Assembly: GCF_002368415.1 (NCBI RefSeq) | Contig: NZ_AP018290.1 | Span: 6,337,614-6,401,613, forward strand | DNA length: 64,000 nucleotides | Direction: 5' to 3' | Source: Calothrix sp. NIES-4105 | GTDB taxonomy: Bacteria; Cyanobacteriota; Cyanobacteriia; Cyanobacteriales; Nostocaceae | Shown here: one piece after another, positions 1,977-23,203 of the stretch | Numbering within the stretch: the first letter of the stretch is position 1 | How the letters are laid out: each line of letters starts with the position of its first letter | Position numbers and translations under genes: made by a program | The notes under the pieces: generated by a model | The model's input: the letters and a program-made list of their open reading frames with translations, nothing else | The model's database searches: none | Told to the model about the DNA's origin: nothing

Positions 1977-2684
1977 TTAAACCTTCGCTAATTCTGGAGC
2001 GGGACGTTTGCTGTTACGGATAGCTTCGATTGCTTGTGCATAGTCAGAAGCATTATATACTGCTGAACCTGCGACAATTGCGTTGGCGCCTGCTTCTAAA
2101 ACTTGCCAAGTATTATTCGCTTTTAAACCACCATCCACTTCAATCCAAGGGTCTAAACCACGTTCGTCACACATTTCGCGCAACTTGCGAATTTTAGGCA
2201 CCATCCCAGGAATAAAGCTTTGACCCCCAAAACCAGGGTTAACGCTCATAATTAATACTAAATCGACAATATCTAATACGTACTCAATTAAATCCAACGG
2301 AGTTGAAGGATTGAGAACGACACCAGCCTTTTTGCCATGCTCTTTAATTAAGCCAAGAGTACGGTGCAGGTGCGGAGAAGCATTATGCTCACAATGTACC
2401 GTGATATGGTCGGCGCCAGCTTTGGCAAAATCTGCCACGTATTTTTCTGGCTCTACAATCATCAAGTGGACATCGAGTGGTTTTTTGGTAACTGGACGAA
2501 TTGCCTCAACTATCAGCGGACCAATGGTTATATTTGGAACAAAGCGTCCGTCCATTACATCAACATGAATCCAATCAGCTCCTGCCTCATCTACGGCACG
2601 AACTTCTTCTCCTAAACGGCTGAAATCTGCTGATAATATAGACGGAGCTATTACAATGGGCTTGTCGGATGGCTTATAAGTCAT
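1977..2684 (-). CDS. rpe: Ribulose-phosphate 3-epimerase
   Basis: Rpe interconverts D-ribulose 5-phosphate and D-xylulose 5-phosphate in the Calvin cycle and the oxidative pentose phosphate pathway, in the cytoplasm. The 235-residue TIM barrel has the family hallmarks: [12 protein letters not shown] near the N-terminus, [17 protein letters not shown] with the metal-binding His and Asp, the [10 protein letters not shown] phosphate loop and the EVDGGL catalytic Asp region. The length is normal for the family. It is divergent from the S8 peptidase gene, with 121 bases between the two starts. The start is the ATG at 2684. Identification is secure. Confidence 0.97.
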
Positions 2685-2805
2685 GGCTAGCGCTTAATAG
2701 TTGCTTGAAATTCTGTATGCATTGTAACAAAATATGAGCAGCGGCTCATCTATCTAATTTCATCCTACATTAACCGTTTACAATTATTTACCTTTTTTAA
2801 AGATA

Positions 2806-4398
2806 ATGACGATGGCGAAAAAACAAACCTGGATATTTTGGGGATTGAGTGCGGCTTTATTAAGTACACCAGTTCTAGCTATTAAATTTAGTAGTTCAAT
2901 GGATAGTTTTGGAATTGATGCGCTGAAGTTGCACAAAGCTCCTTATAATTTAACAGGGCATAAAATCGCTATTGGTCAAGTCGAAATTGGGCGCCCAGGA
3001 AAGTTTGGAGTCGATAAAACAGTTTCAAATAATCGCGCATTATCACCGATTGCTGTATTCTTACGAAACATTCCGGCAAAGTCGAACAGTGGTGTTGACC
3101 CGCACGCACACAATGTTGCGGGTGTGATGATAAGTAACGACAAAGCTTTTCCAGGGGTTGCACCAGACGCACGACTTTATTCTTCAGCAGTTGGTTCGAC
3201 AAAAGTTCAGGGTCAACCCGAAGAATGTTTGTCAGCGCAGCATATTGCATCACAAAATGGTGGTGACGTGCGCGCGATTAATTTTAGCTTTGGTGAACCA
3301 CTTAATCGCGACCCGCGTCCCGACCCTGTTCTCGATGGCAACGCTTTATTAACGATGTGTATTGACTGGTCTTCGAGAGTTCATAATTCGCTATATATTA
3401 TTGCAGGAAATCAAGGTAAAGGTGGTATTCCCATTCCCACCGATAACTTCAATGGACTAAACGTGGCGTTTTCCTCGCGTCGCGCTGATATATTTACAAA
3501 AGTTGACGTTTCTAACTTAGCTGCGGTGCCGGAAGGTGCGGCGGCTCGGTTAGCTGGTAAAGAAATTAATATTGGGGTTCGTCGTTCAGTAGGTATTCTT
3601 GCTCCTGGCAGTAATATTCGGATGTTAAACCCTGATGGCAAGATAAATAAAGTTACAGGTACTAGTTTTGCGGCGCCTCACGTAACAGGAACTGTAGCTT
3701 TACTCCAAGAGTTTGGTGATAGACAGATACTAAAAAAGCAGCCCAATTGGAGTATAGCTTCACGTCGTCACGAAGTTATGAAAGCAATTTTACTTAACTC
3801 AGCCGATAAAATAAAAGACAATGGCGATGGTTTACGCTTAGGCATGACTCGAACGATAATTGACAAGCAGAACCTTGACTGGCTTGCTTCTGACGCTTAT
3901 AAAGACCCGAAAATACCACTTCATGCTCAAATGGGCGCCGGACATTTAAACGCAGCGCGCGCTTTACAACAATTTGGCGCCGGACAGTGGCAACCAAACC
4001 AACCTGTACCAGCTTTAGGGTGGGATTATAATACAATCACAGCGAATACAAGCGTAGATTATCAACTTGCAAAACCACTCAAAGCAAATAGTTTTGTTTC
4101 TCTAAGCTTAAGTTGGGATAGATTAGTTGAACTCCAAGACAAAAATAATAATCAGGTGTACGAAGAAGGAGAAAACTTTCGCGACCGAGGTTTAAACAAT
4201 CTCAATTTATACCTAGTCCAAGATACTCCCAACGGTTCCACCTCTATAGCATGTTCCTCAGTTAGCGAAGTTGACAGCGTTGAACATATATTTTGCCCAG
4301 TTCCAACTGCTGGTAAATACAAAATTCGCGTTCAATATACAAAACAAGTAAACGAAGCAAAACAACCCTATGCACTCGCATGGTGGACAGTACAGTAG
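2806..4398 (+). CDS. Exported S8 (subtilisin-type) serine peptidase
   Basis: This 530-residue secreted or periplasmic protease has a signal peptide at residues 1-25 (MTMAKKQTWIFWGLSAALLS, then a VLA cleavage-type motif). Its S8 blocks are in order: IAIGQVEIGRPG (about 54-65, where the catalytic Asp is expected but Glu60 is seen), DPHAHNVAGVM with the likely catalytic His100, AGNQGKGG with the oxyanion Asn, and GTSFAAPHVTG with the nucleophile Ser. A roughly 120-residue beta-rich C-terminal domain may be a P-like or binding module. The Glu at the Asp position is an inference from motif alignment and may be normal for this cyanobacterial subgroup. The substrate is unknown. An ATG six bases later (2812) is an alternative start. 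Confidence 0.88.
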   Translation: MTMAKKQTWIFWGLSAALLSTPVLAIKFSSSMDSFGIDALKLHKAPYNLTGHKIAIGQVEIGRPGKFGVDKTVSNNRALSPIAVFLRNIPAKSNSGVDPHAHNVAGVMISNDKAFPGVAPDARLYSSAVGSTKVQGQPEECLSAQHIASQNGGDVRAINFSFGEPLNRDPRPDPVLDGNALLTMCIDWSSRVHNSLYIIAGNQGKGGIPIPTDNFNGLNVAFSSRRADIFTKVDVSNLAAVPEGAAARLAGKEINIGVRRSVGILAPGSNIRMLNPDGKINKVTGTSFAAPHVTGTVALLQEFGDRQILKKQPNWSIASRRHEVMKAILLNSADKIKDNGDGLRLGMTRTIIDKQNLDWLASDAYKDPKIPLHAQMGAGHLNAARALQQFGAGQWQPNQPVPALGWDYNTITANTSVDYQLAKPLKANSFVSLSLSWDRLVELQDKNNNQVYEEGENFRDRGLNNLNLYLVQDTPNGSTSIACSSVSEVDSVEHIFCPVPTAGKYKIRVQYTKQVNEAKQPYALAWWTVQ

Positions 4399-4717
4399 AA
4401 AGTGCTGAGTTCTGAGTGCTGAGTAAAGTTTGAGTGCTGTAGGTTGGCTACCCCTTCCATGCCTGCGGTGTACACACATCTTTGATAATCATTTTTATAT
4501 TCCCCTCTTTGTGCCACGCCACTTGCCTCAAGTCGGCGCAGCCGCCCACGGCAGTGGCTCCTTTGTGTCTTCGTGGTTCCTTAAAGGAATAAACCACTGC
4601 ATGTCACAAAGGGCACAAAGGAAGAGAAGAAAGGGAAGAAAGGGAAGAAAGATAACTTTGAAAAACTTGTGTGTACACGGTAGCCTGAGAGCGCGGGGGG
4701 TTAGGGGGATCTCCAGT
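4399..4717. repeat. Intergenic repeats (heptamers, CACAAAGG blocks)
   Basis: There is no convincing gene. Directly after the peptidase stop come TGAGTGC-type heptamers (about 4400-4440). Then follow a GTTCCTTAAAGGAATAAACC half-palindrome and purine-rich CACAAAGG and GGAAGAAA tandem blocks (4600-4660). The same CACAAAGG family occurs near 9480, 21200, 46360 and 57050. Short open frames on both strands here are products of the repeats. Confidence 0.7.
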
Positions 4718-8614: not shown

Positions 8615-8779
8615 ATGGAAACAGGAAAAGAGCAAACAGATGTAAACAATCAAGAGAGTAAACAAAATGATTCTATTAAGAAAAGTAAAGGTAAATTTCC
8701 TTGGCTTGTAACAGGTAGTATTTTTATTGGATGTTTCACGTTTAGCCCTTCTTACTTGGTTTACCAGCAGTACTATTAG
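8615..8779 (+). CDS. Short ORF running into a uppP remnant
   Basis: A 54-residue frame starts METGKEQTDVNNQESKQNDS, contains a hydrophobic stretch PWLVTGSIFIGCF, and ends at a TAG inside the uppP-derived sequence, read in the wrong frame. A weak GAGG-type ribosome site lies just upstream (8602-8607). It looks like the 5' part of a small membrane-anchored protein gene that recombination joined to the 3' part of uppP. The original gene is not recognised and the product is probably non-functional. Confidence 0.35.
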   Translation: METGKEQTDVNNQESKQNDSIKKSKGKFPWLVTGSIFIGCFTFSPSYLVYQQYY

Positions 8780-9000: not shown

Positions 9001-9573
9001 ATAGTAAGGTGGGCATCGCTTCGCTCCGCTCAAGCGCAAGCCTTGCCCTGGTGAAAAAAGGCGCCTGCCTTACTCATTATGATTAATTTTGGGGTATTAA
9101 TTAGCAACGGATACAACGGATGTAACGGATAAGTTATTGTTTACAAACAAAATCTAGTTATCCAAAATCAACCATCCGTTACATTCGTTCATTATCCGTT
9201 GCCAATATTTCTACTCCCAGATTTTTTTACCACAGAGGCAGTAGAGACGCGATTAATCGCGTCTCTACACAGAGGAAAAAGGAATGAACTACAAAGAATA
9301 CGAAGAAAGAAATAAGAGGAGATAATTTAATGTGACATGCATTAAACGGGGATAATATTAGCTCTCTACGATAATTTTATTACGGTTACGCTACCGGACA
9401 TGATATAAGTCATTAAATTATATAGCAGTCCTAAATCATTCGTAAAATTTTAAACATGTATCTTCCTTTTCTTCCTTTGTGTCCTTTGTGTCTTTGTGGT
9501 TCGTCATAGAGATTTAATTTTTCACTTTGCAGTTAGGAATGCTATAACTCACCTTTATTATAACTTTGTTTGT
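9001..9573. repeat. Repeat-rich intergenic region
   Basis: In order this holds a degenerate GGTGGGC-type element just after the uppP relic and a long imperfect inverted repeat built from CAACGGATGTAACGGAT units (about 9103-9202). A perfect 28-base GTAGAGACGCGATTA-type palindrome follows at 9241-9268, and CTTTGTGTCCTTTGTG blocks at about 9470-9500. The CAACGGAT family recurs at about 24990, 48403 and 48650. No gene is seen. Confidence 0.75.
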
Positions 9574-10860
9574 ATGGCTAAACAGCTAGAATTACCTCTT
9601 GAAGGATGTGAAGCGCTTTCAACTCCTTTAAACACTTCCTCAACATTTGCAGACAATATGAAGTTACCTGTTCACCGCTGGTTTCGGTATAGTGCAGGAT
9701 TTTCGGCAATGTGGGTTGAGAGTTTAATTACTCAAGCTAGTAAGCAAGGAAATGTTACAGTTTTAGACCCATTTGCTGGTTCTGGAACAACTTTATTGGT
9801 ATCTGAAAAATTAGGCGCCCAATGTTACGGTGTTGAAGCTCATCCTTTTATTGTGCGTGTAGCAAGGGCAAAGTTATTATACAAAACGGATGTTGATAGT
9901 TATAGAGAGCATATACTTCATATTCTAAAAGTAGCTGATAACATACAAGGCTGTGTGCAAGATTATCCTAAATTAATTCGTAAATGTTTTAAGGATTCCT
10001 CATTAGAATGTTTAGATAAATTACGAAAAGCTTATTTACAGCTAGCTGATAATTCACCTCAATCAGAGTTAGCTTGGTTAACACTTGTAGCTATCCTTCG
10101 CCATGTTTCTCATGTTGGTACTGCACCTTGGCAATACGTTTTACCTAATAAAAGTAAACAATCTTACTTAGAACCAATTGTAGCATTTACTTTAATGGCA
10201 GAAACTATTGCCTCTGATATGATTACCACAAATGCAAAGTCTGTAACAGCGCAGATTATCCAATCAGACGCGCGCTACTGTCAAGGAGTGCCAGATAATA
10301 AATTTAATTTAGTAATTACCTCACCTCCTTACGCTAATAATTATGATTATGCAGACGCTACACGATTGGAAATGTGCTTTTTACAAGAAATTTCTGGTTG
10401 GGGTGATTTACAAACTGCCGCGCGACAATATTTAATTCGTTCATGCTCACAACATGTAACATCAAAAAATGTTAATTTAGATGAGGTTTTAGCATCAAGA
10501 GAATTAGAAGCTATTCAAGGAGCGATTACAGAAGTATGCTATAAATTATCTCAAGAAAGATTATTACATGGTGGAAAGAAAAATTATCATTTAATGATTG
10601 CTTGCTATTTTTTAGATATGGCTAAAGTTTGGATAGCATTGCGTAGAGTTTGTCAAGCAAATGCAAAGATTTGTTTTGTAATTGGAGATTCTGCCCCTTA
10701 TGGTATTTATATTCCAGTTATTGAGTGGCTAGGATTATTAGCTTGTAGTGCAGGATTTAAATCTTTTGAGTTTAAAAAGATTCGCGACCGTAACGTTAAA
10801 TGGAAAAATCGTAAGCATCAAGTTCCTCTTTGTGAGGGTTATTTGTGGGTTGATGGGTAA
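9574..10860 (+). CDS. DNA amino-methyltransferase (probable restriction-modification)
   Basis: This 428-residue protein, counted from the ATG at 9574 (MAKQLELPLEG), has the AdoMet motif DPFAGSGTT near residues 65-73 and the catalytic motif TSPPYANNYDY starting near residue 250. SPPY is characteristic of N4-cytosine or N6-adenine amino-methyltransferases. Motif I before motif IV with about 180 residues between them suggests the alpha-type order with an internal target-recognition region. The next gene is a likely endonuclease on the same strand, so the pair should be a type II system. The target sequence cannot be read from the protein. An upstream in-frame start at 9496 is less likely. Confidence 0.8.
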   Translation: MAKQLELPLEGCEALSTPLNTSSTFADNMKLPVHRWFRYSAGFSAMWVESLITQASKQGNVTVLDPFAGSGTTLLVSEKLGAQCYGVEAHPFIVRVARAKLLYKTDVDSYREHILHILKVADNIQGCVQDYPKLIRKCFKDSSLECLDKLRKAYLQLADNSPQSELAWLTLVAILRHVSHVGTAPWQYVLPNKSKQSYLEPIVAFTLMAETIASDMITTNAKSVTAQIIQSDARYCQGVPDNKFNLVITSPPYANNYDYADATRLEMCFLQEISGWGDLQTAARQYLIRSCSQHVTSKNVNLDEVLASRELEAIQGAITEVCYKLSQERLLHGGKKNYHLMIACYFLDMAKVWIALRRVCQANAKICFVIGDSAPYGIYIPVIEWLGLLACSAGFKSFEFKKIRDRNVKWKNRKHQVPLCEGYLWVDG

Positions 10861-10895
10861 TTGATGGGTAATTGATGGGTAATTAAAAAGGCTTT

Positions 10896-11759
10896 ATGGC
10901 AGAATCATATTCACATAAATGGGGGCAAATTATTGGAAATCTTATCCAAGAGTTTATTCGCGAAACCCTTCAAGAAGTAGCTTTGGCACATGGTTTTTAC
11001 TTAGATTATCAGAAAAAACGCGCTTGCCGAACTAGTAAAAAGGTTTCTTGGCAAGATAGATACGGTAATTTTCATGACCTTGATTATGTGTTAGAACGAG
11101 GTGGAGATGAAAATACCCGTGGACTTCCTGTCGCTTTTATTGAAACTGCTTGGCGCCGTTACACTAAGCATTCTAAGAACAAAGCACAAGAAATTGAAGG
11201 TGCGCTAATTCCCTTATCAGAAACTTACAGTAATCTCAACCCTTTTTTAGGTGTTATTTTAGCAGGAGTTTTTACAAAGGGCGCCCTTGAACAATTAGAG
11301 TCCAAGAAATTTAAGATTCTTTACTTAAAATATGAAAACATAGTTAAAGCATTTGCATCTGTTAGGATTAATGCATCCTTTGATGAAAGTACGCCAGAGA
11401 CAGAGTTTCAAGACAAGATTAATCGTTGGAATAATTTATCTGCTCAAGATATAGCAATTATCAAAACTCAATTACTTAGCTTGGAAAAACCTAATATAGA
11501 TACTTTTGTTAAGGAAGTAAATAAGTCGTTTAGTAGACGTATACAAAGTGTAAGTATTATAGTTTTACATGGATTGATACAGCAATTAGATTCGATTGAG
11601 AATGCAATTGAATATATTCAAAGTTATTCAGCTAGCCAAACTATAGTGGCGCCTATTTTAAAGTATGAGGTTGATATTCGTTACAATAATGGTGATATTA
11701 TTCATGCAATGTTTCAAGATAGGGCTGAAGCTATTAAATTTTTGATGACTTTTGCTTAA
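10896..11759 (+). CDS. Probable type II restriction endonuclease
   Basis: This 287-residue soluble protein follows the methyltransferase after 35 bases made of three near-copies of TTGATGGGTAA. It has an acidic cluster HDLDYVLE at about 60-67, and 20 residues later PVAFIETAWRRYTKHSKNK at about 79-97. That arrangement (Asp, then Glu followed by basic residues) resembles a PD-(D/E)XK nuclease core. The nuclease role is inferred from this pattern and from adjacency to the methyltransferase. I do not recognise a specific enzyme family or recognition site. Codon use and GGCGCC content resemble the neighbours, so there is no sign of recent transfer. Confidence 0.65.
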   Translation: MAESYSHKWGQIIGNLIQEFIRETLQEVALAHGFYLDYQKKRACRTSKKVSWQDRYGNFHDLDYVLERGGDENTRGLPVAFIETAWRRYTKHSKNKAQEIEGALIPLSETYSNLNPFLGVILAGVFTKGALEQLESKKFKILYLKYENIVKAFASVRINASFDESTPETEFQDKINRWNNLSAQDIAIIKTQLLSLEKPNIDTFVKEVNKSFSRRIQSVSIIVLHGLIQQLDSIENAIEYIQSYSASQTIVAPILKYEVDIRYNNGDIIHAMFQDRAEAIKFLMTFA

Positions 11760-12167
11760 TATTTTGATGACATTAGAGTTTTCTAAAAATTTGTAGTTCT
11801 TACTCACATAGAGTTTTCAACTCTATGCTAACAGCATAAGTCCTCTTACAGAGGACTCTAAATTTATTGTTATTTTTATTACTCTAAATTTTAGATTATG
11901 TCGTTTGTACTTAGAGGTGCAAGATGTCAGATAAGGTTTTGTTGGGTTCCGTAAAGCCTCCACCCAACCTACAAATATTCGTGCCGAGCAGTATGAGGAT
12001 TGCTACATATTAGAAGTCGGGCAACTGTTCAGTGAAAAACTTACCAAGCTACCCAACTCAGTTTTATATTCGCAATATTGTTACCAATACCACTGGAGTA
12101 GTTTCTGGACTCTTCTTTTTATCTCTCCTAACAAATTCCCATCTGCTAGCTCGCGAGTAGAAGAGCG
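11760..12167. other. Gene-free stretch between the REase and the DGR template
   Basis: Contains small hairpins (for example CCTCTTACAGAGG near 11842) and a TTGGGTTCCGTAAAGCCTCC repeat of the family that also lies near 21150, 22480, 24870 and 26620. The stretch next to the TR (12090-12167) shows no homology to the target gene. Confidence 0.5.
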
Positions 12168-12282
12168 CTCGCTCCACCAACCACAACCCGAAAACCAACG
12201 TTGTTGTTGTCGTTGTTGTTGTAGTTGCGACACGCCGAACGACAGTTTTCAGGATTGTTGTTCCACGAACCGCCGCGCAGCA
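12168..12282 (-). other. DGR template repeat (TR)
   Basis: A 115-base template that aligns with the VR at 14422-14532. On the minus strand it begins TGCTGCGCGGCGGTTCGTGG and then carries an adenine-rich core of AAC and AAT codons, equivalent to W-N-N-N-P-E-N. Next come C-R-S-A-C-R and then [10 protein letters not shown]. It ends with an adenine-poor block, GTTGGTTTTCGGGTTGTGG..., followed by GGAGCGAG. All 12 substitutions between TR and VR are at TR adenines. The last block differs from the VR just past GGAGCGAG (CGCTCTT versus GACTCTT), as expected for IMH* against IMH. It lies 126 bases downstream of the reverse transcriptase stop. Confidence 0.95.
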
Positions 12283-12407
12283 TCTAAGAGTGCCCACCCC
12301 ATGTTCAGTTTCTTGAAGAGACAGGCAGGGACACCTATCCTACACAGGCAGGGATGCCTGTTCCACAAGAGGTATGAATTACTATTATGTATATCATTGT
12401 TGGGAAT
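12283..12407. repeat. Short repeats between TR and RT
   Basis: Contains two near-copies of CAGGCAGGGA followed by CCTGTTCCACAAGAGG. This family recurs near 22595 and 24950. This interval may be part of the TR transcript. Confidence 0.5.
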
Positions 12408-13457
12408 CTATAATACAAAATCTTCAAAAATCTTTGTACGCAGGCGCCAGGTATCTCCATGTTTTAAGTGAGCTATCCAACTTCTGATCGAGTGCGTAAT
12501 TTGTTCAAGCTCAATTTTACCTTCCTCATACTCTGCTTTAAGCCTTTTTAATCTTCGCTTCGCGCGTCGTAGGTTTTCGGTACGCACCCTAATTCTATCT
12601 GGGAGTACACAAAATCCTAAGAAGTTGGCGCCATGACGAGTTTCAAAGAGTTGGCTTTTGGCTGGGTGGAGTATTAGTCTGAGAGTTGCTAAGTATTCTT
12701 CCATTGCCAGTCTTGCTTCTACTAAAAACTCTCTATCATCTGAAAATAAAGCAAAATCATCGACATAGCGAACGTATTTACTAACTTTGAGATTTTCTTT
12801 GATAAAGTGGTCAAAACCGTTTAGGTAAACATTGCCAAAGAATTGACTGGTTAAATTACCAACAGGCAACCCACGTCGTCGTAAAGGTGAAAGAACATCA
12901 TCACCTGGAAAATATTTATCATCTACATCAATTTGAGGATTGCTGTTATCAATAATTGTATCAATTAGCCATAGAGTATCTTTGCACTTAATTTTACGAC
13001 GCAAGAGAGTTTTTAGGATTTCATGGTCAATGCTGGGAAAATACTTTTTGATATCACACTGTAAGATATAGCGACTCGAACGAGCAAAATCAGTAAAACG
13101 ACGCAACGCACGGTGGGTTCCATAATTTACACGGTTCGCGTATGAATCATTGATATAAGTATTTTCAAAGATTGGTAGTATAATATTGCATAACGCATGA
13201 TGTACAACTCTATCTCGATACGGTGCTGCTGAAATCATACGTGGTCTTGGTTCTAATATCTGGAAAGTTTTATAGGCGCCTGGTTTATAGGTTTTTGATT
13301 CTAATTCAGTTTCCAGTTTTTCCAGTTCTGCTTGTAAGTCAAAGTTGAATTCTAAAACATTGTATCGATTTAGTTTTCCTTTCTGTGCCTTACGCGCGGC
13401 TGAATATAAATTCCAAAAGTCCGTAATTTGTGGGTAAAGATTACCGTGTCTTTTCAT
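12408..13457 (-). CDS. DGR reverse transcriptase
   Basis: This 349-residue enzyme copies the TR RNA into adenine-mutagenised cDNA for insertion at the VR. RT motifs in order are [20 protein letters not shown] (71-90), [12 protein letters not shown] with catalytic Asp135, [18 protein letters not shown] (196-213) and [11 protein letters not shown] with Asp233 and Asp234. The [10 protein letters not shown] motif and the short length are typical of DGR-type RTs rather than group II intron RTs, and there is no maturase or endonuclease domain. The frame extends upstream to 13529 through an intergenic palindrome. The ATG at 13457 ([11 protein letters not shown]) matches the family N-terminus. Avd lies just upstream and the TR just downstream. 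Confidence 0.95.
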
Positions 13458-13513
13458 AGTAATTATTATATTTATACCAAATTTTTTAATACGTATACCA
13501 ATCCAATACGTAT

Positions 13514-13530
13514 GGTGGGCACTGCCCACC
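13514..13530. repeat. GGTGGGCA palindrome between avd and RT
   Basis: A copy of the 17-base GGTGGGCACTGCCCACC palindrome sits between the avd stop and the RT start, within the DGR operon. Confidence 0.85.
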
Positions 13531-13564
13531 CTACAAACTACAAACTCAATAATTATTATTGAAA

Positions 13565-13951
13565 TTATTGACCCTTCTTTATATTTTGCTGCTGCTTAAT
13601 CCATCCACCTAAACCGCAACCAATTTCATTAATTTGCCTTCCAGCACATCTAACTTTGTCTTGATCAAAAACATCCAAATCAAATAGCAACCATGTAAAG
13701 ATCCTTAAAATGTCTACCTTGGCATTTAATCGCTTTAACTTTTCTAATTTATCATTATCGTATCGCGCTTCTGATAAACCTTCCATTAAATCGTAAAGTC
13801 GGTTTACGATTCTATCTCCAAGACCAAACTTATGGTTTTTAGGTAAACGATTGAGAATTGGTACGTACCATATAATTAGCTTATAGGTTTTGTACATAAT
13901 CGGTAAGTCTTTCATAATGGGCAATTCTTTCATAATCGGCAAGTCTTCCAT
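13565..13951 (-). CDS. avd: DGR accessory protein Avd
   Basis: This 128-residue helical, basic protein of the Avd / four-helix-bundle family binds the reverse transcriptase and the TR RNA in DGR retrohoming. The pattern [20 protein letters not shown], then [19 protein letters not shown], is characteristic. The N-terminus contains three tandem copies of a six-residue unit ([18 protein letters not shown]), from an 18-base repeat. Three in-frame ATGs (13951, 13933, 13915) are therefore possible starts, with another Met just after the third unit. A GAGGT ribosome site five bases before 13951 supports the first. It lies 107 bases upstream of the RT start and downstream of the target gene. Confidence 0.93.
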
Positions 13952-14351
13952 GTTGTACCTCGAAAATGGTTAGTACTTCAGGTCTTCTGTTGTAATTTAC
14001 CCCAATCGAATTCGCTGTGGCGGCTTTTGTTATTTTTATTCGCCCAAGTTGATTTAGCTTAATAGTTTGTCTTAAATTAGAACATTTGTTCGCTACTCTC
14101 TCCTTGCAGGAGAGGGGTTGGGGAGAGGTTTTTAAAAATTTAAAAATGCAACAATATATTAATGTCTAGAATCTAATTAATCTTAAAGTGAAATAAAAAA
14201 GTCAATTTTATAAATAAATTTGCAGTACTATTTACTCAAATTATTGTGTAAAATTGTGATGTGACTAAAAATCAATTACACTGCTTGACAAAATTTTGAT
14301 TTTCACAGACAATATATTTAGTCGTGCTATCAAAAAAACAAAAAAAAATCG
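13952..14351. other. Intergenic stretch between target gene and avd
   Basis: AT-rich. It contains a CTCTCCTTGCAGGAGAG hairpin (about 14099-14115) followed by GGGGTTGGGGAGAGG, a repeat common in cyanobacterial intergenic DNA. The avd/RT promoter would be expected here. No gene is seen. Confidence 0.5.
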
Positions 14352-14366
14352 ACCGCCGAAGGCGGT
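14352..14366 (-). terminator. Hairpin downstream of VR followed by T-run
   Basis: On the minus strand ACCGCC-TTC-GGCGGT is followed by CGATTTTTTTTTG, a good intrinsic terminator for the target operon. DGR targets often have a DNA hairpin downstream of the VR that promotes homing, and this one lies about 55 bases past the VR end. It could serve either role or both. Confidence 0.7.
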
Positions 14367-14371
14367 AAGGG

Positions 14372-16942
14372 TTAGAAAAGTGCAAAGAGCAGAGGGCAAA
14401 AGTGTAAAGAATTAAAGAGTCCTCGCTCCACCAACCACAACCCGAAAACCAACGTCGTTGTCGAAGCTGCTGTAGACGCGACACGCCGAACGACAGTATA
14501 CAGGAATGAGGTCCACGAACCGCCGCGCAGCAACTTAAAAGTATTATCATTATCATTTTTAGTTAATTTTTCATCAAGCCAAGAAGAGCCATCTACAGGA
14601 GCATCTTCATAACTATCGTGCCAATCATCATTACACCATTCCCAGACATTGCCATGCATATCAAATAAGCCAAACATGTTAGCTATTTGAAAGCTGCCTA
14701 CAGGTGTTGTCTTTTCTCTAAATTCTCCCTTGGAACCAGAGCCATAAGTTTCGCTGCCATCATAATTCGCTAACTCTGGCGTAATTGTTTCGCCAAAGTG
14801 GAAGGGTGTAGTCGTGCCCGCGCGACAAGCATATTCCCACTCTGCTTCGCTAGGAAGTCGGTAGTTTTTTCCAGTGTATTTTGATAGTCTATCACAAAAT
14901 TCAACAGCATCGTACCAAGTTACATATTCTACAGGTAAATTTTCTCCTTTTTCTTCTTTAAAGTAAGACGGGTCGGGGTCAAGTTCGCGGTTAACCTGTG
15001 GAAGTGTTGCAACTGCCCGCCATTGGGCTTGGGTTATGGTGTATTTTCCCATGAAAAAGGGTGGAACTGTTACTTCGTGTTGAGGACGTTCATCATCAGT
15101 GCTTTCTTTTTCGGTTTTCGGCGCCCCCATCAAAAAGGCGCCTCCAGGTATCTCGACCATATCCAAGGTGACGTTGTTGGGAAGGTATTCTATAAAGTAT
15201 CGGGAGGAATGAGGATTTTTAGTAATGATGATTTGGGGTTTACGGCGCCCTACTTTTTTAACCTCTACTGTTGCCACATCAAATGTAAAAGGTTTGAGCA
15301 GGACTTTTTTACCGTTAATTTCCGCTTGGGTAACTTGCTCCCACTGTTCTTCTATCTCAGAAGCGATGCGAGCATAAATTCCTCCTAAGCGTTTTAACAC
15401 TTTTGCGGAGATTTGAGCAAATGCTTTTGTTTCAACCCCATCTATTTCGGCGAGTTCTGGCTTTCGTAACAAAGCGTAAAATTGATTAATACTCTTACCT
15501 AACCGTTCGGCGAAATGTTTGGAAACAGCATCGAAAACTTTTAAAGAACTTTGTTCAGAGGCAGCTTCTTGGAAATTATCGCGTATTTGTTCGTCGATAA
15601 AGATAAATCGTATATTATCGGGATTTGTATCGGGTGTAATGCCGCCCAAGGGTTTTATAATTCCACCAAGGAATACTTCGGCAACATGGACTTGCTGCGA
15701 TTCTTGAAGTAATTCTTTCTGGATTATATGGACTATGGGTAAGGTAATTACAGGTGCAGCAGAAAGTAAACTTGCGAGCTTGCGTGCCATTGGGGAACTT
15801 GTTAAGCGGAAGCTATTGGCTTGTTGCTCATAATTTGAGTCTTCAGTTTGAAAATCTTTGTCTAGCTCATCTTCAAGTGGCTCAAACTCTGATGGAAAAA
15901 CAAATCCGGTAGCTCTAGCATAGCTTTTTCCCGCTACCATCTCGCTCCAAGTTCTTGCTACCTCTGGTTCTAGGGTTAATACCGGAACTTTAATCCCGGT
16001 CGCAAAATTTATGCTGTCCCATAGTAATATCTCTTTGATGAGTAAACTTTGATTTGGTACTCCTGGCGCCGAATTTCCAAATTGTACCTTTGCTCCTAAG
16101 CTGAGTCCTGTTCTTAACCACATCCATTCGGGTAGCATTTGTACAATTGCAACCGGACTGTGCTTAACCCACATCTCAATTACTGATACGGCTTTTCCAT
16201 TACGCCAAATTTTGTCAACACAATCGCTAACTATTAATATAAGACTGCGACCGCTTGGGTCAATGAGTTCAGGGGGGTTATAGTAACGGTGAGGACGTTT
16301 TTTACTTACTCCTCGTTGCAGGACAACTTTATCTTCTTTATATATTAGTCCCCAAGTTCGTACATCACGAAAGGCGCCGCATTGTTCCAGCAGTTTCTGA
16401 AACTCTCGAATTGTTTTTCGCCAAAAAATCATCGACTCGCTTTCATCTACCACTAATACTAAATCAAACCAAGGTTCTAAGGCTTTTTTGAAGACAGGAA
16501 TAAAAATCTTTTGTTCAGCGGTAAGATTAACAGTAGCTTGCTCATCTAAAACTTTTTTACTACCCGAAGATATTTTTTGCATCAACGGACGCAATGCTCT
16601 GGCAAGTTGTAGAGGTTGCCGTAAAGATGGTGCGTCTGGAAGTGGAATGGGTTGAAAATTACCAGAACCTGATGTTGTACGGTTGCCTTCGGTATATACT
16701 TCAACCTTTGGTTCAATAGGAGGAGTTTCAACAGCGGTTTGGGAGGGGGGAGCAGAGGAAGAGGGTTTTGTGTCGGTTTCTGATTTTATTTCCGGAACTG
16801 ATGGAACATTAGAGGAAGCTTCAGCATTATCTTGATGTTTCAGTAACCAAAGAATATCCGCTATTTCTATGCTAGTTAACTCTAGTTTCTGGCTTAAAGC
16901 TGTAATTAGCTTACCAATACGTTGTGATACGTCCTCAGTCAT
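14372..16942 (-). CDS. DGR target: vWA/SAV_2336-like plus FGS-fold protein, frameshifted in VR
   Basis: 856 residues as read. Residues 1-35 are a short helical domain and 40-100 a Pro/Ser-rich linker. Residues about 140-590 are an SAV_2336/vWA-like domain with a MIDAS-type DESES at 166-170 and an LILIVSDCVDKIW strand. From about 595 runs a formylglycine-generating-enzyme/C-lectin fold domain: VEIPGGAFLMG, PPFFMGKYTITQAQW, RLPSEAEWEYACRAG, MHGNVWEWCNDDW, LLRGGSW. That domain is the usual DGR target scaffold. A net one-base deletion right after the GGSW codons shifts the frame. As read, the tail is TSFLYTVVRRVAST... and ends at 14372. Restoring one base gives C-R-S-A-C-R...[13 protein letters not shown] with a stop at 14412-14414. 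It lies 66 bases after the MoxR gene, so the two are likely co-transcribed. Confidence 0.9.
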   Translation of the reverse strand: MTEDVSQRIGKLITALSQKLELTSIEIADILWLLKHQDNAEASSNVPSVPEIKSETDTKPSSSAPPSQTAVETPPIEPKVEVYTEGNRTTSGSGNFQPIPLPDAPSLRQPLQLARALRPLMQKISSGSKKVLDEQATVNLTAEQKIFIPVFKKALEPWFDLVLVVDESESMIFWRKTIREFQKLLEQCGAFRDVRTWGLIYKEDKVVLQRGVSKKRPHRYYNPPELIDPSGRSLILIVSDCVDKIWRNGKAVSVIEMWVKHSPVAIVQMLPEWMWLRTGLSLGAKVQFGNSAPGVPNQSLLIKEILLWDSINFATGIKVPVLTLEPEVARTWSEMVAGKSYARATGFVFPSEFEPLEDELDKDFQTEDSNYEQQANSFRLTSSPMARKLASLLSAAPVITLPIVHIIQKELLQESQQVHVAEVFLGGIIKPLGGITPDTNPDNIRFIFIDEQIRDNFQEAASEQSSLKVFDAVSKHFAERLGKSINQFYALLRKPELAEIDGVETKAFAQISAKVLKRLGGIYARIASEIEEQWEQVTQAEINGKKVLLKPFTFDVATVEVKKVGRRKPQIIITKNPHSSRYFIEYLPNNVTLDMVEIPGGAFLMGAPKTEKESTDDERPQHEVTVPPFFMGKYTITQAQWRAVATLPQVNRELDPDPSYFKEEKGENLPVEYVTWYDAVEFCDRLSKYTGKNYRLPSEAEWEYACRAGTTTPFHFGETITPELANYDGSETYGSGSKGEFREKTTPVGSFQIANMFGLFDMHGNVWEWCNDDWHDSYEDAPVDGSSWLDEKLTKNDNDNTFKLLRGGSWTSFLYTVVRRVASTAASTTTLVFGLWLVERGLFNSLHFCPLLFALF
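14422..14532 (-). other. DGR variable repeat (VR)
   Basis: 111 bases at the 3' end of the target gene, matching the 115-base TR. Codon by codon from TGG, TR AAC-AAC-AAT-CCT-GAA-AAC corresponds to VR [-]AC-CTC-ATT-CCT-GTA-TAC. After CGC, TR AAC-TAC-AAC-AAC-AAC-GAC-AAC-AAC-AAC corresponds to VR GTC-TAC-AGC-AGC-TTC-GAC-AAC-GAC with one AAC missing. All 12 substitutions are at TR adenines and none at C, G or T. The only other differences are a lost A and a lost AAC. The invariant 3' block before GGAGCGAG should be the IMH. Confidence 0.95.
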
Positions 16943-17008: not shown

Positions 17009-18145
17009 TTACAGTTCAGCAGTATTAGATAAGCTTTTCCATAACAATTCTTTTAATGCTTCTTTATCTGTTTTAGAACTGACATGTTTTATTAGTAAGT
17101 CAATTGTGTTTAATAACTGATCTGTCGCACAGTTGTCTTTTAGAAGAAATTTTTCAATGAGTTCGTTAATTTCGGTTTCGGCATTTTCAAACTTATCTTT
17201 TTCAGGATCATCTTCAAAATGAGCTTTAACAATAGTTTTCAGTGCAGAAGCATTGGGTTTAGGCATTGTTACCCGTAAACACCGTCGTAAAAAAGCTGGG
17301 GGAAATTCCCGTTCTCCATTACTGGTCATAATAACGATAGGAAACTCAGCACATTGTACACGTCCCTCATAAATAGAAGCTTTGATTCCTGGGTCTTGAG
17401 TTCTAACTTTGACTGCCTTGCTTATAGTACCAATATATGTATCTTTGACCTGGCGAACTAATTCAGAAATTTCAAAAGCACCATCTTCAAAAAGATGTAA
17501 TAGGTCATTAGGTAAATTAATATCACTTTTGTCTATTTCGTCTATTAATAATACTCTTGGCAATTTAGAAGGTAAAAACGCTGTACCAACAGAACCTAAT
17601 TGAATATACTCACCAATACTTTTTTCTTTCTTTAATTGTGCATCCTGTAATCGAGCTATCGCATCATAACGATAAAGTCCATCTTCTAAAGAAGAGCGCG
17701 CTGTAATTGACCAAGTGAGAACAGTGCCTAATTTTAGCTCATGAGCAATTGCATAAGCTAAAGAAGTTTTTCCCGTTCCTGGGTTGCCAGTGACTAACAA
17801 AGGTCTACGTAAATACAATGCTGCATTTACCCCGTCAATAACTTCTTTCCATTCTGGAGCAGATTCTTCTGTTCCATCTTTGTTCGCTATCGTACAAATC
17901 CGGAAATTTTCGCCTTTCTTCTTAGCGCGCGCGTTCTCTGGCAAGTCAGCTAATTTTTGAACATCATCCCAACGGGTTGCTATTTCCTCTTTTTGTTCCT
18001 CGGTCATTTTTTCAATATCCCGAAACATTCGCCAAGGAGGAGGATCAGGAAATTTTTCGGGAACATTATGAGACTTCCCATCACCGTAAAAGCGGCGCCA
18101 TTCTTGAGTTGTTTCTGTTTTTTTTGCTTGCTTGGCTTTTGGCAT
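17009..18145 (-). CDS. MoxR-family AAA+ ATPase
   Basis: This 378-residue AAA+ protein has Walker A GNPGTGKTS at 120-128, Walker B VLLIDEIDK at about 198-206 and a sensor/arginine region EFPPAFLRRCLR near residue 285. MoxR ATPases work with vWA-domain partners as chaperone or remodelling factors. Here the vWA partner is encoded next downstream. The basic N-terminus (KAKQAKKTE) and a roughly 100-residue lead-in are specific to this subgroup. It starts five bases after the stop of the VMAP-like gene, so the coupling is tight. In the vWA-MoxR-VMAP conflict systems described in cyanobacteria this is the NTPase that couples sensing to effector release. That role here is inferred from context. Confidence 0.9.
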   Translation of the reverse strand: MPKAKQAKKTETTQEWRRFYGDGKSHNVPEKFPDPPPWRMFRDIEKMTEEQKEEIATRWDDVQKLADLPENARAKKKGENFRICTIANKDGTEESAPEWKEVIDGVNAALYLRRPLLVTGNPGTGKTSLAYAIAHELKLGTVLTWSITARSSLEDGLYRYDAIARLQDAQLKKEKSIGEYIQLGSVGTAFLPSKLPRVLLIDEIDKSDINLPNDLLHLFEDGAFEISELVRQVKDTYIGTISKAVKVRTQDPGIKASIYEGRVQCAEFPIVIMTSNGEREFPPAFLRRCLRVTMPKPNASALKTIVKAHFEDDPEKDKFENAETEINELIEKFLLKDNCATDQLLNTIDLLIKHVSSKTDKEALKELLWKSLSNTAEL

Positions 18146-18150
18146 TGATT

Positions 18151-19614
18151 CTAAGTAATTAATTGTGCTTTAGTAGTTTTTAGTTTTCTAACCTTGGCTA
18201 TTTTATCAGGGATATCACATACAAACCCTAAATGATATCCTAAATGTTGCTTTGGATTTTTTTCTCTATAAGCTTTGGTACGCATTTCATAGACATGTTT
18301 AATTAATTTTTCTAAATTGTTGTTCAAACATTCCGAGGTTAAATAGCAATCAATTAGTTCTAACTTGCGATTACGAGAAGGTTTACATTTTAACCAAAAT
18401 GCGAATGGCACTCCTCCATTGAAAATTGCTTTTATAAATTCTTGTTGTTCAGTTTCAAAATTTAAAAGAGGTTTAGTCAATTTAATACCAATCTTATTTT
18501 TTAATTCCTTCCCTAATTGCTGCCATTTTAAATTATCGGTTCTATTCACTGTTTTAATATTTTCCTGAATATTTAAACTAGGTTCTTTTGAGGAGAGAAT
18601 ATTCATTAAGTTATTCCATCCCCCTACTAAATACTTGAAATTATAAAGTCCTGTAATCCGGTCGGTTGCATGTACAACTACATGAAAATCTTCTATAATT
18701 GGCACAGACTGCTTATTATCATTTGTATAGCACCAATCACTTACATCTGTATACAATAGCTGATAAGGTAGATATATTTCTATAAGGCTTAAACCAGCAT
18801 TTTTATTCTTTAAAAAGTAAGCAATAATTTCATTTACTTCTTGAGGAATACTTTTCTCTGAACACAAAGTTCCCGTTCTTAATTTATTCTCGTTTTTTGC
18901 AACATAATTTAAAGGTTCTATATTGTCACCTTTAATACACATAGGTTCTAAGCAGAATTTTTCTAGCTCAGGAATAATTATTAGCGCTAAATGAGAATCG
19001 CATTCTTGTGACTCTGATTCTTCAAAACGAATGTCTTGAATATTTAAACTTGTTAAAATCGGATTTAAGTAATTTATTATTTGTTGATAACAGTTATGAC
19101 TTTTTGTTAGGCTCTTGGCAATTTTAATAATCCATTGTACTAAATAAGGAGTATTTTTATCATTTCTTTTTTCGTATCTACTTAAATTATTTATAATATT
19201 ATCTATACTTTTGATCTCAGAGAGTTCTATATTGTCTGTTACAGTGTTTGATGGCAAAGTTTGTAGGTAAGAGTTTTTAAGTAACGTAAACTCTATTTCG
19301 TTTAATAATAATTTTAAATTTTTGATGTCATATTGTTGTGTAACCGAATTTAAATAGGTACTGTTAAACTCATTTAATTTAGGATTTCCAGGGTTTTCTT
19401 TAATTGCAGCTTCTAAAAGTTCTGTGACATTGCCTTTGGCTTCAGCATTCTGAATTAATTTAAATACAATTTCCTCATGATTAGCTCCAGTCGTTATTTG
19501 ATTTAACGACCAATCTAACTTAAAACTTAACATCATTTCTAAACTTTGCTTTGTAGGAAAGGCATCCATTAAAGCGTTATGAAAAAGTTCTCGTTGTTCT
19601 TTAGTCAATCCCAT
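18151..19614 (-). CDS. EAD-domain protein with VMAP-like C-terminal region
   Basis: 487 residues. Residues 1-80 form an effector-associated domain: KEQRELFHNALMDAFPT, then KQSLEMMLSF and LLEAAIKENPGNPKL. It is nearly the same as the C-terminal domain of the adjacent CHAT protein. Residues 85-160 are helical linker. About 165-487 resemble the C-terminal region of vWA-MoxR associated proteins (VMAP-C), with patterns such as EIYLPYQLLYTDVSDWCYTN and FAFWLKCKPSRNRK. VMAP proteins are the third partner in the ternary MoxR/vWA systems. The EAD identity is seen directly. The VMAP-C call comes from family knowledge and context and is less certain. It lies 38 bases after the CHAT gene. Confidence 0.75.
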   Translation of the reverse strand: MGLTKEQRELFHNALMDAFPTKQSLEMMLSFKLDWSLNQITTGANHEEIVFKLIQNAEAKGNVTELLEAAIKENPGNPKLNEFNSTYLNSVTQQYDIKNLKLLLNEIEFTLLKNSYLQTLPSNTVTDNIELSEIKSIDNIINNLSRYEKRNDKNTPYLVQWIIKIAKSLTKSHNCYQQIINYLNPILTSLNIQDIRFEESESQECDSHLALIIIPELEKFCLEPMCIKGDNIEPLNYVAKNENKLRTGTLCSEKSIPQEVNEIIAYFLKNKNAGLSLIEIYLPYQLLYTDVSDWCYTNDNKQSVPIIEDFHVVVHATDRITGLYNFKYLVGGWNNLMNILSSKEPSLNIQENIKTVNRTDNLKWQQLGKELKNKIGIKLTKPLLNFETEQQEFIKAIFNGGVPFAFWLKCKPSRNRKLELIDCYLTSECLNNNLEKLIKHVYEMRTKAYREKNPKQHLGYHLGFVCDIPDKIAKVRKLKTTKAQLIT

Positions 19615-19652: not shown

Positions 19653-21074
19653 TTAAAGGTTACGTAATTTTGGATTTCCAGGATTTTCTTCCTTGGCAGC
19701 TTCCAAAAGTTCTATCAGCTTACCTTTAGCTTCAGCATCCTTAATTAATTTAAATACAATTTCTGAAAGACTACCTCCATCAGCAATATGATTTAATTTC
19801 CAATCCAACCGATAATCTAACATCATTTCTAAACTTTGCTTTGTAGGAAAAGCATCCATTAAAGCTTGATGAAACAGTTCTCGCTGAGATGAATTTATAT
19901 TAACCATGTTAGATATTAATGATTCTTGTTTATTGTCTATGCTAGATTCTGTTTTAAACAAGTAACCATCTTGCACGCGCATAAAGATAACAGGCGCCGC
20001 AAAATCACGTTTCCGATACTGAGTTGCACCCAAAGCTATTGCATACCGACCTTCTTGTACTGCTATATCTACAGCGGCGCCTTGTGCTAATTTTTTATAG
20101 AAGCTACAAGCGAAACGAGATGCTGTAGCGTTACTAACTTCATATTGCATAGCTGTGACAACTGGGATATTTTGCTGTACCACCCTAGAAGCAACCCCAG
20201 CAAAAGCTTGTGATGTAGATAGTTTAGCACCTTCACACGCTTGTAGCATCACGACTCCTGGGCGATGTCGGTTAAATAATTGGCTAAAAAAACCTGCATC
20301 TTCCCACCTTGCTTCACCAGACAAATCATCTACAAATGCTATTTCTCCAACTTCGTGTTTATTTTCATTTTCCAGGCGCCCATGTCCGATAAAGTGAAAA
20401 ATATGTGGCTCTCTAGCTAAAATATCATCAACAGCTCCAGGGTTCGCTTCATTTACAACTGGTAATAATTCAATTCGTGCTGCTTGTTCGATAGCTAATT
20501 TCTCTAAAGCTTCCTGTACTCGCTTATATTCAACATTACCTAAATTATTTGGCGCCGATACAACCAAAGCAATTTTTAGCTTTTCATTTTTGCTTAACTC
20601 AATAGGTGCTGCAGGAGTCCACTGCGAACGGCGACGAGAGAAAATAATATCTGGAGTAGTACCTAACCAAATTGTCCCCGAATTTGCACTTTGGGGTAAG
20701 CACATAAATTCCCAAGGTAATGCAGCTACTTCGGGCAGGTTTTGCTCATCTATATCTAGTTCAACTCGCAGTAATTGCTTTTTCTGTTGAACTACCTCGT
20801 AATAAAAGTTTACAAAATCTTGGCGAAGTACGTCATCAAATAGTAAATCAAATAAAGCTTCTCCAAGTAAGCGCGCTTTGTTACTATCATTTAGTTCATC
20901 TTTATTGGCAAGGTTGAGGAGTTGTGCAATTTCTGAATTATTAGAAAATTTTTCCTGGTAACGAAATTTTCCAGATGGTTGACCAAGGGATTGATGTTGA
21001 GAATCCTGCTTTTCGACTTGCACTAGGCTATGATTAGCTACACGGATGTGGTAAGTGTAATAAACTTTAGGCAT
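19653..21074 (-). CDS. CHAT-domain caspase-like protease with C-terminal EAD
   Basis: 473 residues. An N-terminal roughly 150-residue beta-rich region precedes a CHAT peptidase domain (about 165-370) with the catalytic pair His231 in FHFIGHGR and Cys280 in VMLQACEGA. Residues about 392-473 are an effector-associated domain (SSQRELFHQALMDAFPT..., ENPGNPKL) that matches the N-terminus of the next protein. CHAT proteases act as executioner-type effectors that cleave host or partner proteins. The EAD is thought to couple effectors to partners by homotypic contact. I infer that this is the effector of the system, held by the VMAP-like protein. Transcription runs into the VMAP, MoxR and vWA-FGS genes. 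Confidence 0.88.
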   Translation of the reverse strand: MPKVYYTYHIRVANHSLVQVEKQDSQHQSLGQPSGKFRYQEKFSNNSEIAQLLNLANKDELNDSNKARLLGEALFDLLFDDVLRQDFVNFYYEVVQQKKQLLRVELDIDEQNLPEVAALPWEFMCLPQSANSGTIWLGTTPDIIFSRRRSQWTPAAPIELSKNEKLKIALVVSAPNNLGNVEYKRVQEALEKLAIEQAARIELLPVVNEANPGAVDDILAREPHIFHFIGHGRLENENKHEVGEIAFVDDLSGEARWEDAGFFSQLFNRHRPGVVMLQACEGAKLSTSQAFAGVASRVVQQNIPVVTAMQYEVSNATASRFACSFYKKLAQGAAVDIAVQEGRYAIALGATQYRKRDFAAPVIFMRVQDGYLFKTESSIDNKQESLISNMVNINSSQRELFHQALMDAFPTKQSLEMMLDYRLDWKLNHIADGGSLSEIVFKLIKDAEAKGKLIELLEAAKEENPGNPKLRNL

Positions 21075-22655: not shown

Positions 22656-22841
22656 CAAGTTTATGTGAAAGCCGTAAAAAAGCAACTAGTTGAATGGACA
22701 GTTTATTTAGCAATTCCAGTAGATATTTACAACGGTTTTTTATTGAGATTTAACTTTATTCGAGAAATGGTTGAGGAGTACGACTTGAAGCTAATTGTTT
22801 TTCATCCTGGCACTAAGGAGATTGTTTTATGGAGAAATTAA
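22656..22841 (+). pseudogene. xisH: 5'-truncated xisH
   Basis: From a TAG at 22653 the frame is open to the TAA at 22839-22841 and reads VKKQLVEWTVYLAIPVDIYN, then FNFIREMVEEYDLKLIVFHP and ending in KEIVLWRN. This matches the C-terminal half of XisH, the partner of XisI named for control of fdxN-element excision. The N-terminal nuclease-like half is missing. Its last 13 bases overlap the xisI start, which is the normal xisH-xisI coupling. Confidence 0.7.
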
Positions 22842-23203
22842 ATTATTACGACCTAGTTGAAAAAATCCTCCAACCGTATGCAAATACTACAGTAGGGGAA
22901 GGAACTGAAGTTCAATTAATAGCAGATAGGGCTAACGGTCATTATTTGATTATGTTTGTTGGTTGGCGGGATCAAGCTCAAGTTTATGGAAGTTTGATTC
23001 ATATCGATATTAAGAATAATCAAATTTGGATTCAGCAAGATGGCACCCAAGAGGGAATTGCTCAACAATTAGTAGAGGCGGGTGTTCCTCAAAGTGATAT
23101 TGTGTTAGGCTATCGTTCGCCTTTTGTTCGGCAATTTACTGGGTTTAGTGTGGGAGTTAAAAATCAATCTGAAGTTAAACCGTTAGAAGGAGCTTCAAAA
23201 TAA
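22829..23203 (+). CDS. xisI: XisI-family protein
   Basis: 124 residues. It begins MEKLNYYDLVEKILQPYA and shows the family motifs VQLIADRANGHYLIMFVGW, HIDIKNNQIWIQQDGTQEGI and AGVPQSDIVLGYRSPFVRQF. XisI was named for its role in excision of the fdxN element of Anabaena, but most copies occur as scattered xisH-xisI pairs unrelated to any element, perhaps toxin-antitoxin-like. Here the protein looks full length, while the preceding xisH is truncated, so the pair is probably not functional as a unit. The start overlaps the xisH stop. Confidence 0.9.
   Translation: MEKLNYYDLVEKILQPYANTTVGEGTEVQLIADRANGHYLIMFVGWRDQAQVYGSLIHIDIKNNQIWIQQDGTQEGIAQQLVEAGVPQSDIVLGYRSPFVRQFTGFSVGVKNQSEVKPLEGASK

Follow-up and report, generated by a model that had tools for sequence, protein, structure and literature searches.

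Diversity-generating retroelements (DGRs) act by an established mechanism in which a reverse transcriptase (RT) and the accessory protein Avd copy a template repeat (TR) and the copy replaces a variable repeat (VR). The DGR of Bordetella phage BPP-1 carries an accessory Avd, and such genes are common but not universal among DGRs. Here, we analyze a DGR and an adjoining predicted VMAP ternary conflict operon in a 64,000-nucleotide stretch of the Calothrix sp. NIES-4105 genome (contig NZ_AP018290.1, positions 6,337,614 to 6,401,613; hereafter the window, numbered from its first letter). Published work describes an RT clade of cyanobacteria, together with the targets of its members and the dispersed paralogues of those targets (Vallota-Eastman 2020, PMC7517822), and the window shares with cyanobacterial DGRs (PMC7517822; clade 5E, PMC10907252) an Avd, a TR located after the RT, a target with a C-type-lectin-like FGE domain at its C terminus, and dispersed paralogues. 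Comparison with BPP-1 gives an RT identity of 34.7% over 93% of the query, and both elements have adenine mutagenesis and TR/VR differences at the 3' boundary. In BPP-1, however, the TR precedes brt and the target is a phage tail gene, whereas here the TR follows the RT and the target is a presumed cellular sensor gene.

VMAP operons are the second described system that bears on the locus. According to one study, approximately 80% of cyanobacterial and gammaproteobacterial VMAP systems are linked to DGRs, and in the linked systems the vWA part is mostly fused to the diversified domain (Kaur 2020, PMC7159879). In a later proposal, antigens would be sensed by the diversified target, which would signal via the ATPase (Dore 2024, PMC10907252). 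As in the DGR-linked VMAP systems of those two sources, the window encodes an AAA ATPase, VMAP-C joined to EAD1, an EAD1-linked effector, and a vWA-like/FGE target; it differs from them in that the sensor is frameshifted and in that the ATPase and vWA assignments come here from models that are not MoxR or vWA specific. Both the element and its association with a ternary conflict operon are expected for the group, and the frameshift is the noteworthy part. We consider it quite likely that the locus is a cyanobacterial DGR whose target is the sensor of a VMAP conflict operon, frameshifted within the VR and probably not working.

Adenine-only changes and a frameshift in the variable repeat

The RT, Avd, TR, and VR are all located on the minus strand, as originally predicted. 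Realignment gives a TR core of 113 nucleotides (nt) at 12168-12280, in frame as LRGGSW...GFRVVVGGA, and, within the 3' end of the FGE gene, a VR core of 109 nt at 14422-14530; the intervals first proposed (12168-12282 and 14422-14532) needed only slight trimming. Core substitutions affect 12 of the 25 aligned TR adenines and 0 of 84 non-adenines (one-sided Fisher P = 1.7e-9), and the claim that substitutions fall solely at TR adenines is thereby borne out. The original tally of 12 of 26 adenines, with three in deletions, was close; the core gaps take in three TR adenines and one C. In a longer BLAST alignment, 13 of 27 adenines and 2 of 94 non-adenines are changed, and both non-adenine differences sit at the 3' boundary.

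When the VR was last written can be bounded by comparison with two relatives, Calothrix HK-06 (locus L074 of the survey described below) and Calothrix PCC 7103 (L075). The three TRs differ in eight ungapped columns, and wherever the TR of one strain has a non-adenine letter that is missing from the TR of another, the VR of the first strain agrees with its own TR (17 of 17 cases). Such concerted letters indicate that copying from TR to VR took place after the related strains split, and the earlier claim of activity in the lineage thus stands as one of past activity. Moreover, the identity of VR and TR at all 84 non-adenine core letters suggests that the last homing was recent relative to drift.

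The VR core is shorter than the TR core by 4 nt, made up of one 3-nt gap and one 1-nt gap, and because of these gaps the codon-by-codon reading given originally (AAC to CTC and so on) did not follow the reading frame of the gene. The target open reading frame (ORF; 856 amino acids [aa], 14372-16942, minus strand) has a SAV_2336/vWA-like N-terminal part (NCBIfam SAV_2336_NTERM, 424 bits; cut-off, 200) and a C-terminal FGE-sulfatase, C-type-lectin-like domain (Pfam, 8.3e-54) that matches the DGR variable protein TvpA (2y3c, 1.4e-14), among other FGE folds. The 1-nt gap falls in the first mutable codons, in a minus-strand stretch of 8 nt in the VR (14505-14512) and 9 nt in the TR, and there the target ORF departs from the TR frame. 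By three-frame reading, the present ORF reads LRGGSWTSFLYTVVRRVAS and then runs through an unrelated tail to a stop at 14372-14374, and the end in the TR frame, with its stop codon at 14412-14414 (minus strand), sits in a different frame and is unused by the present ORF. A tblastn comparison with L074 and L075 places a frame change at target residue 811-812. Finally, the FGE match ends at model position 236 of 255 but reaches position 250 or 254 in all 10 of the paralogue frames scanned, which were drawn from 14 other FGE matches in 13 frames of the genome, and the reading frame is kept in 5 of 5 TR-like VR ends at other sites of the genome.

Given the three-frame reading, the tblastn frame change, and the short FGE match, we conclude that the cis target, at least as assembled, carries a frameshift within its VR. 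The element had been described as complete, which therefore holds for the machinery alone and not for its sole cis target gene. Owing to the 1-nt gap, the target ends in an out-of-frame tail and the end of the domain is lost, and judged by its sequence the protein with its present tail is probably not a working sensor. The gap may have arisen as a mutagenic copying error in an adenine-rich stretch or by later mutation. An earlier proposal invokes slippage within AAC repeats in steps that are multiples of three (Wu et al. 2018, cited in PMC12875486), and frameshifted RT genes in DGRs are reported in PMC3521204. Out-of-frame VRs were not found in the literature searched, a statement limited to sources that include the accessible portions of PMC10907252, PMC12875486, PMC8144416, and PMC3521204.

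The target in a predicted VMAP ternary conflict operon

The minus-strand gene order is CHAT-EAD1, EAD1-VMAP-C, AAA ATPase, the SAV_2336/vWA-like and FGE target, Avd, RT, and TR. The first gene encodes a putative effector with CHAT and EAD1 domains (473 aa, 19653-21074; Pfam CHAT, 7.9e-18; EAD1, 2.9e-22), and the second encodes a protein with EAD1 and VMAP-C domains (487 aa, 18151-19614; Pfam EAD1, 1.7e-23; VMAP-C, 2.9e-17), VMAP-C (PF20028) scoring 63.8 bits against a cut-off of 27. EAD1 exceeds its cut-off in both proteins and would constitute the EAD pair that joins effector and VMAP; the whole genome contains 11 EAD1 matches over cut-off. The third gene encodes an AAA ATPase (378 aa, 17009-18145; Pfam AAA, 9.6e-10; AAA_5, 2.8e-8) in the position of the MoxR-like ATPase. 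Thus, the target resides in a predicted VMAP ternary conflict operon, and linkage of such operons to DGRs has already been published. Among the 10 scanned FGE paralogue frames, 7 carry another domain: TIR, CHAT, caspase, kinase (two), GUN4, and phosphorylase.

Several points weigh against this interpretation. The ATPase matches AAA and AAA_5 over cut-off, and no MoxR-specific family is among its Pfam matches. The target is without a Pfam vWA match, and its vWA part is read from the SAV_2336_NTERM match; the target also contains VVDESESM, which resembles what we take to be the vWA metal site. PADLOC returned no system-level match for the target, the VMAP-C gene, or Avd. Moreover, the 1-nt gap may be a one-base assembly error, as discussed below.

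How the system might operate can be sketched as follows. The RT and Avd would reverse transcribe the TR RNA with mistakes at adenines, and the resulting cDNA would take the place of the VR at the 3' terminus of the neighboring target gene. The variable lectin face is presumed to be an invader sensor that might signal through the ATPase, and the CHAT-EAD1 protein is the likely effector, on which the sensor could act via EAD1 contacts. With the present VR, the target sensor is probably dead until rewritten, and, the template being still in frame, further homing could replace this VR. The locus offers a natural case of an in-frame template and an out-of-frame target, suited to asking if null alleles are produced by DGRs and subsequently overwritten by homing.

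Related loci and alternative explanations

A scan with an RT alignment gave at least 80 loci, and each was compared with itself for TR/VR pairs, which were retained if at least five adenines were changed and non-adenine changes were at most one quarter of these. From 59 of the 80 loci listed, together with the window, 79 pairs were obtained, and 21 loci were without a pair; the counts below refer to these loci. Pooled over the longest pair from each of the 59 loci, 855 of 1818 adenines and 90 of 5684 non-adenines are changed, a contrast set in part by the filter, which demanded an excess at adenines. Eight of the 79 pairs are gapped, with triplet gaps in seven (L074, L082, L087, L101, L118, L146, and the window), and the window alone has a non-triplet gap inside the VR core, the other 78 pairs having none. 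The pair at L133 was considered as a second frameshifted VR and rejected, as its +1 gap falls after the GFRV motif. Since an indel can terminate a local alignment, out-of-frame VRs could have been cut short, and a reading of VR frames served as a partial check. This check flagged 12 VRs, of which seven were without a GFR-type match; by eye, six of the seven are in frame with a different motif (GFRA, GLR, or GFC), and L148 has upstream stops.

Broken-looking genes are found beyond the window. When frames were read upstream of the VR, at least 6 of the 79 VRs lie in such genes (the window, L074, L131, L092, L148, and L080), a count that leaves out L094 and L137, which are too near a contig end. 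In L074, the target (2110-4653) has a stop before the VR, yet 17 of 32 VR adenines are changed. L131 has a stop within the FGE domain, and L092 and L148 have stops upstream, near contig starts. In L080, TR and VR (8629-8757 and 10351-10479) share one extra base relative to L081, and 10 of 30 VR adenines are changed; a broken frame can thus sit in the template itself. The survey baseline is therefore one non-triplet core gap, seven triplet gaps including that of the window, and one frameshift shared by TR and VR. VRs of broken-looking genes are still rich in adenine changes, which implies either that homing needs no working target or that the lesions came later.

The closest relatives differ in what they retain. 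L074 is 66% identical to the window in VMAP-C, 81% in the AAA ATPase, 78% in the target, 88% in Avd, and 90% in the RT; its contig begins inside the VMAP-C match, and CHAT falls outside the comparison. L075 keeps CHAT-EAD1 (79%), Avd (75%), and the RT (88%), with a distant ATPase (38%) and a target match confined to the FGE part. The operon is modular.

Whether the locus is a DGR at all turns on the RT (12408-13457, minus strand; Pfam RVT_1, 5e-20), whose start is taken as the ATG at 13457, conserved in an alignment of 18 RTs from relatives and the window, the ORF as listed opening upstream at 13529. One could imagine instead that an FGE end was duplicated next to the RT of a group II intron or retron, as the NCBIfam matches of the RT are group_II_RT_mat and retron_St85 and no DGR RT model is among them; the scores, however, are far below the curated cut-offs (134.5 against 300 bits and 57.2 against 235 bits). 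Moreover, a tree of 24 RTs that included 4 of the genome's 8 other RT matches (midpoint rooted, with long phage branches) groups the window RT with 17 cyanobacterial relatives, BPP-1 brt, and the BalMu-1 RT, with 100/100 support for the split from the four other genome RTs. The best of those eight other matches reaches only 7.8e-11. A profile of 18 RTs searched against PDB had 8ub7, presumably the BPP-1 RT, as its best match (1.9e-61), compared with 8.5e-23 for the best group II-type RT. Avd is also present (128 aa, 13565-13951, minus strand; NCBIfam DivGenRetAVD NF033474, 119.6 bits against a cut-off of 80; Pfam bAvd, 3.8e-14) and is the sole Avd match over cut-off in the genome, two weaker matches elsewhere falling under it; comparison of Avd with solved structures gave no meaningful match. 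With the tree, the profile search, and the adenine-only changes against it, the chance that the locus is no DGR is negligible, and the original assignment is upheld by an RT apart from the four others and a core free of non-adenine substitutions. The locus has the RT type, the adenine-only TR/VR pair, the Avd, and the VR at the 3' end of an FGE-domain gene that characterize DGRs, and it lacks one usual but not defining feature, a target in frame through the VR. Similar RTs (1e-60 or better) occur in 54 of 291 genomes of the order and 5 of 7 of the genus, and the window RT is 58-73% identical to relatives across the order, the genus's closest copies aside, and 88-90% identical to those of Calothrix HK-06 and PCC 7103.

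Given a DGR, the frameshift itself might be an assembly or sequencing error in an ordinary complete element with an intact target, which we regard as unlikely. A gap without parallel among 79 pairs is unusual, and an assembler could be confused by a culture that holds a mixture of VRs. Nonetheless, the genome is assembled in 8 contigs with completeness of 100, no neighboring ORFs resemble one split gene (by eye, among 20 window proteins), and 14 of 15 FGE matches in the genome are without an internal stop, the sole TAA being past a natural stop. Alternatively, the frameshift might be an ordinary mutation in a decaying system in which the target is a pseudogene and the DGR is running or idle, a minority possibility of some weight. 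The same-genus L074, with its stop ahead of the VR, and the at least six VRs in broken-looking genes would fit decay; the open frames of RT, Avd, and the rest of the operon, the TR in place, and the perfect agreement of VR and TR at non-adenine core letters would not. Perhaps out-of-frame copying is instead a reversible off-switch that silences a costly conflict-system sensor until in-frame homing reactivates it with new specificity; we think this very unlikely, but if true, it would amount to retroelement-driven phase variation. Finally, the TR might act chiefly on remote VRs, located in other FGE genes, with no need for the cis VR, but this seems highly improbable. Five further FGE genes of the genome have TR-like ends, and TR adenines are enriched among the changes in four (P = 0.0008, 0.0002, 0.022, and 0.00007; fifth, 0.24), but variable positions of a shared fold would yield an equal enrichment. 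Each of the five also has 8-18 non-adenine substitutions relative to the window TR, so no remote VR derives from that TR alone, and we reject the idea that it wrote them. A DGR with a frameshifted VMAP operon sensor remains the explanation that we favor.

Repeat boundaries and flanking genes

The repeats are bounded 3' by GAGCGAGCGCTCTT in the TR (12161-12174, minus strand; similar to IMH*, where IMH is initiation of mutagenic homing) and by GAGCGAGGACTCTT in the VR (14415-14428, minus strand; IMH-like), the VR having GA where the TR has CG. The difference is a regular one: among the 79 pairs, GGA[CT]T lies close to the end in 56 VRs and 1 TR, and GC[AG]CTC is present in 51 TRs and 2 VRs. The IMH difference of BPP-1 (PMC3240598) resembles it. 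A 6-bp hairpin 3' of the VR (14352-14366, minus strand; stem ACCGCC/GGCGGT), a candidate terminator or homing structure, is shared by the window, L074, and L075, the stem being identical and the loop different in each. That such hairpins are peculiar to VRs was unsupported, the mean longest stem being 5.4 past VRs, 5.3 past TRs, and 4.3 in shuffles (78 pairs). The window has no Rfam match at gathering scores and no tRNA. RNA of the TR stretch (12040-12410, minus strand) is predicted to fold better than shuffled sequences (z = -3.1; 0 of 100 as good).

RTs 64-68% identical to that of the window occur in at least six records (L093, L102, L114, L117, L132, and L148) labeled Parabeggiatoa, Thioploca, Thiotrichaceae, or Thiomargarita. 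The published survey reported this RT group from cyanobacteria alone (PMC7517822), and the records may stem from misbinning of contigs or from gene exchange.

A predicted type II methyltransferase and restriction enzyme adjoin the DGR (9496-11759, plus strand; PADLOC MTase_II, 6e-124; REase_II, 7e-68). Next to its own DGR, Calothrix PCC 7103 carries a 92% match to the methyltransferase (L075, 11465-12781) but none to the restriction enzyme gene. Directly past the operon lies an XisI-family gene (22829-23203, plus strand; Pfam, 8.1e-38).

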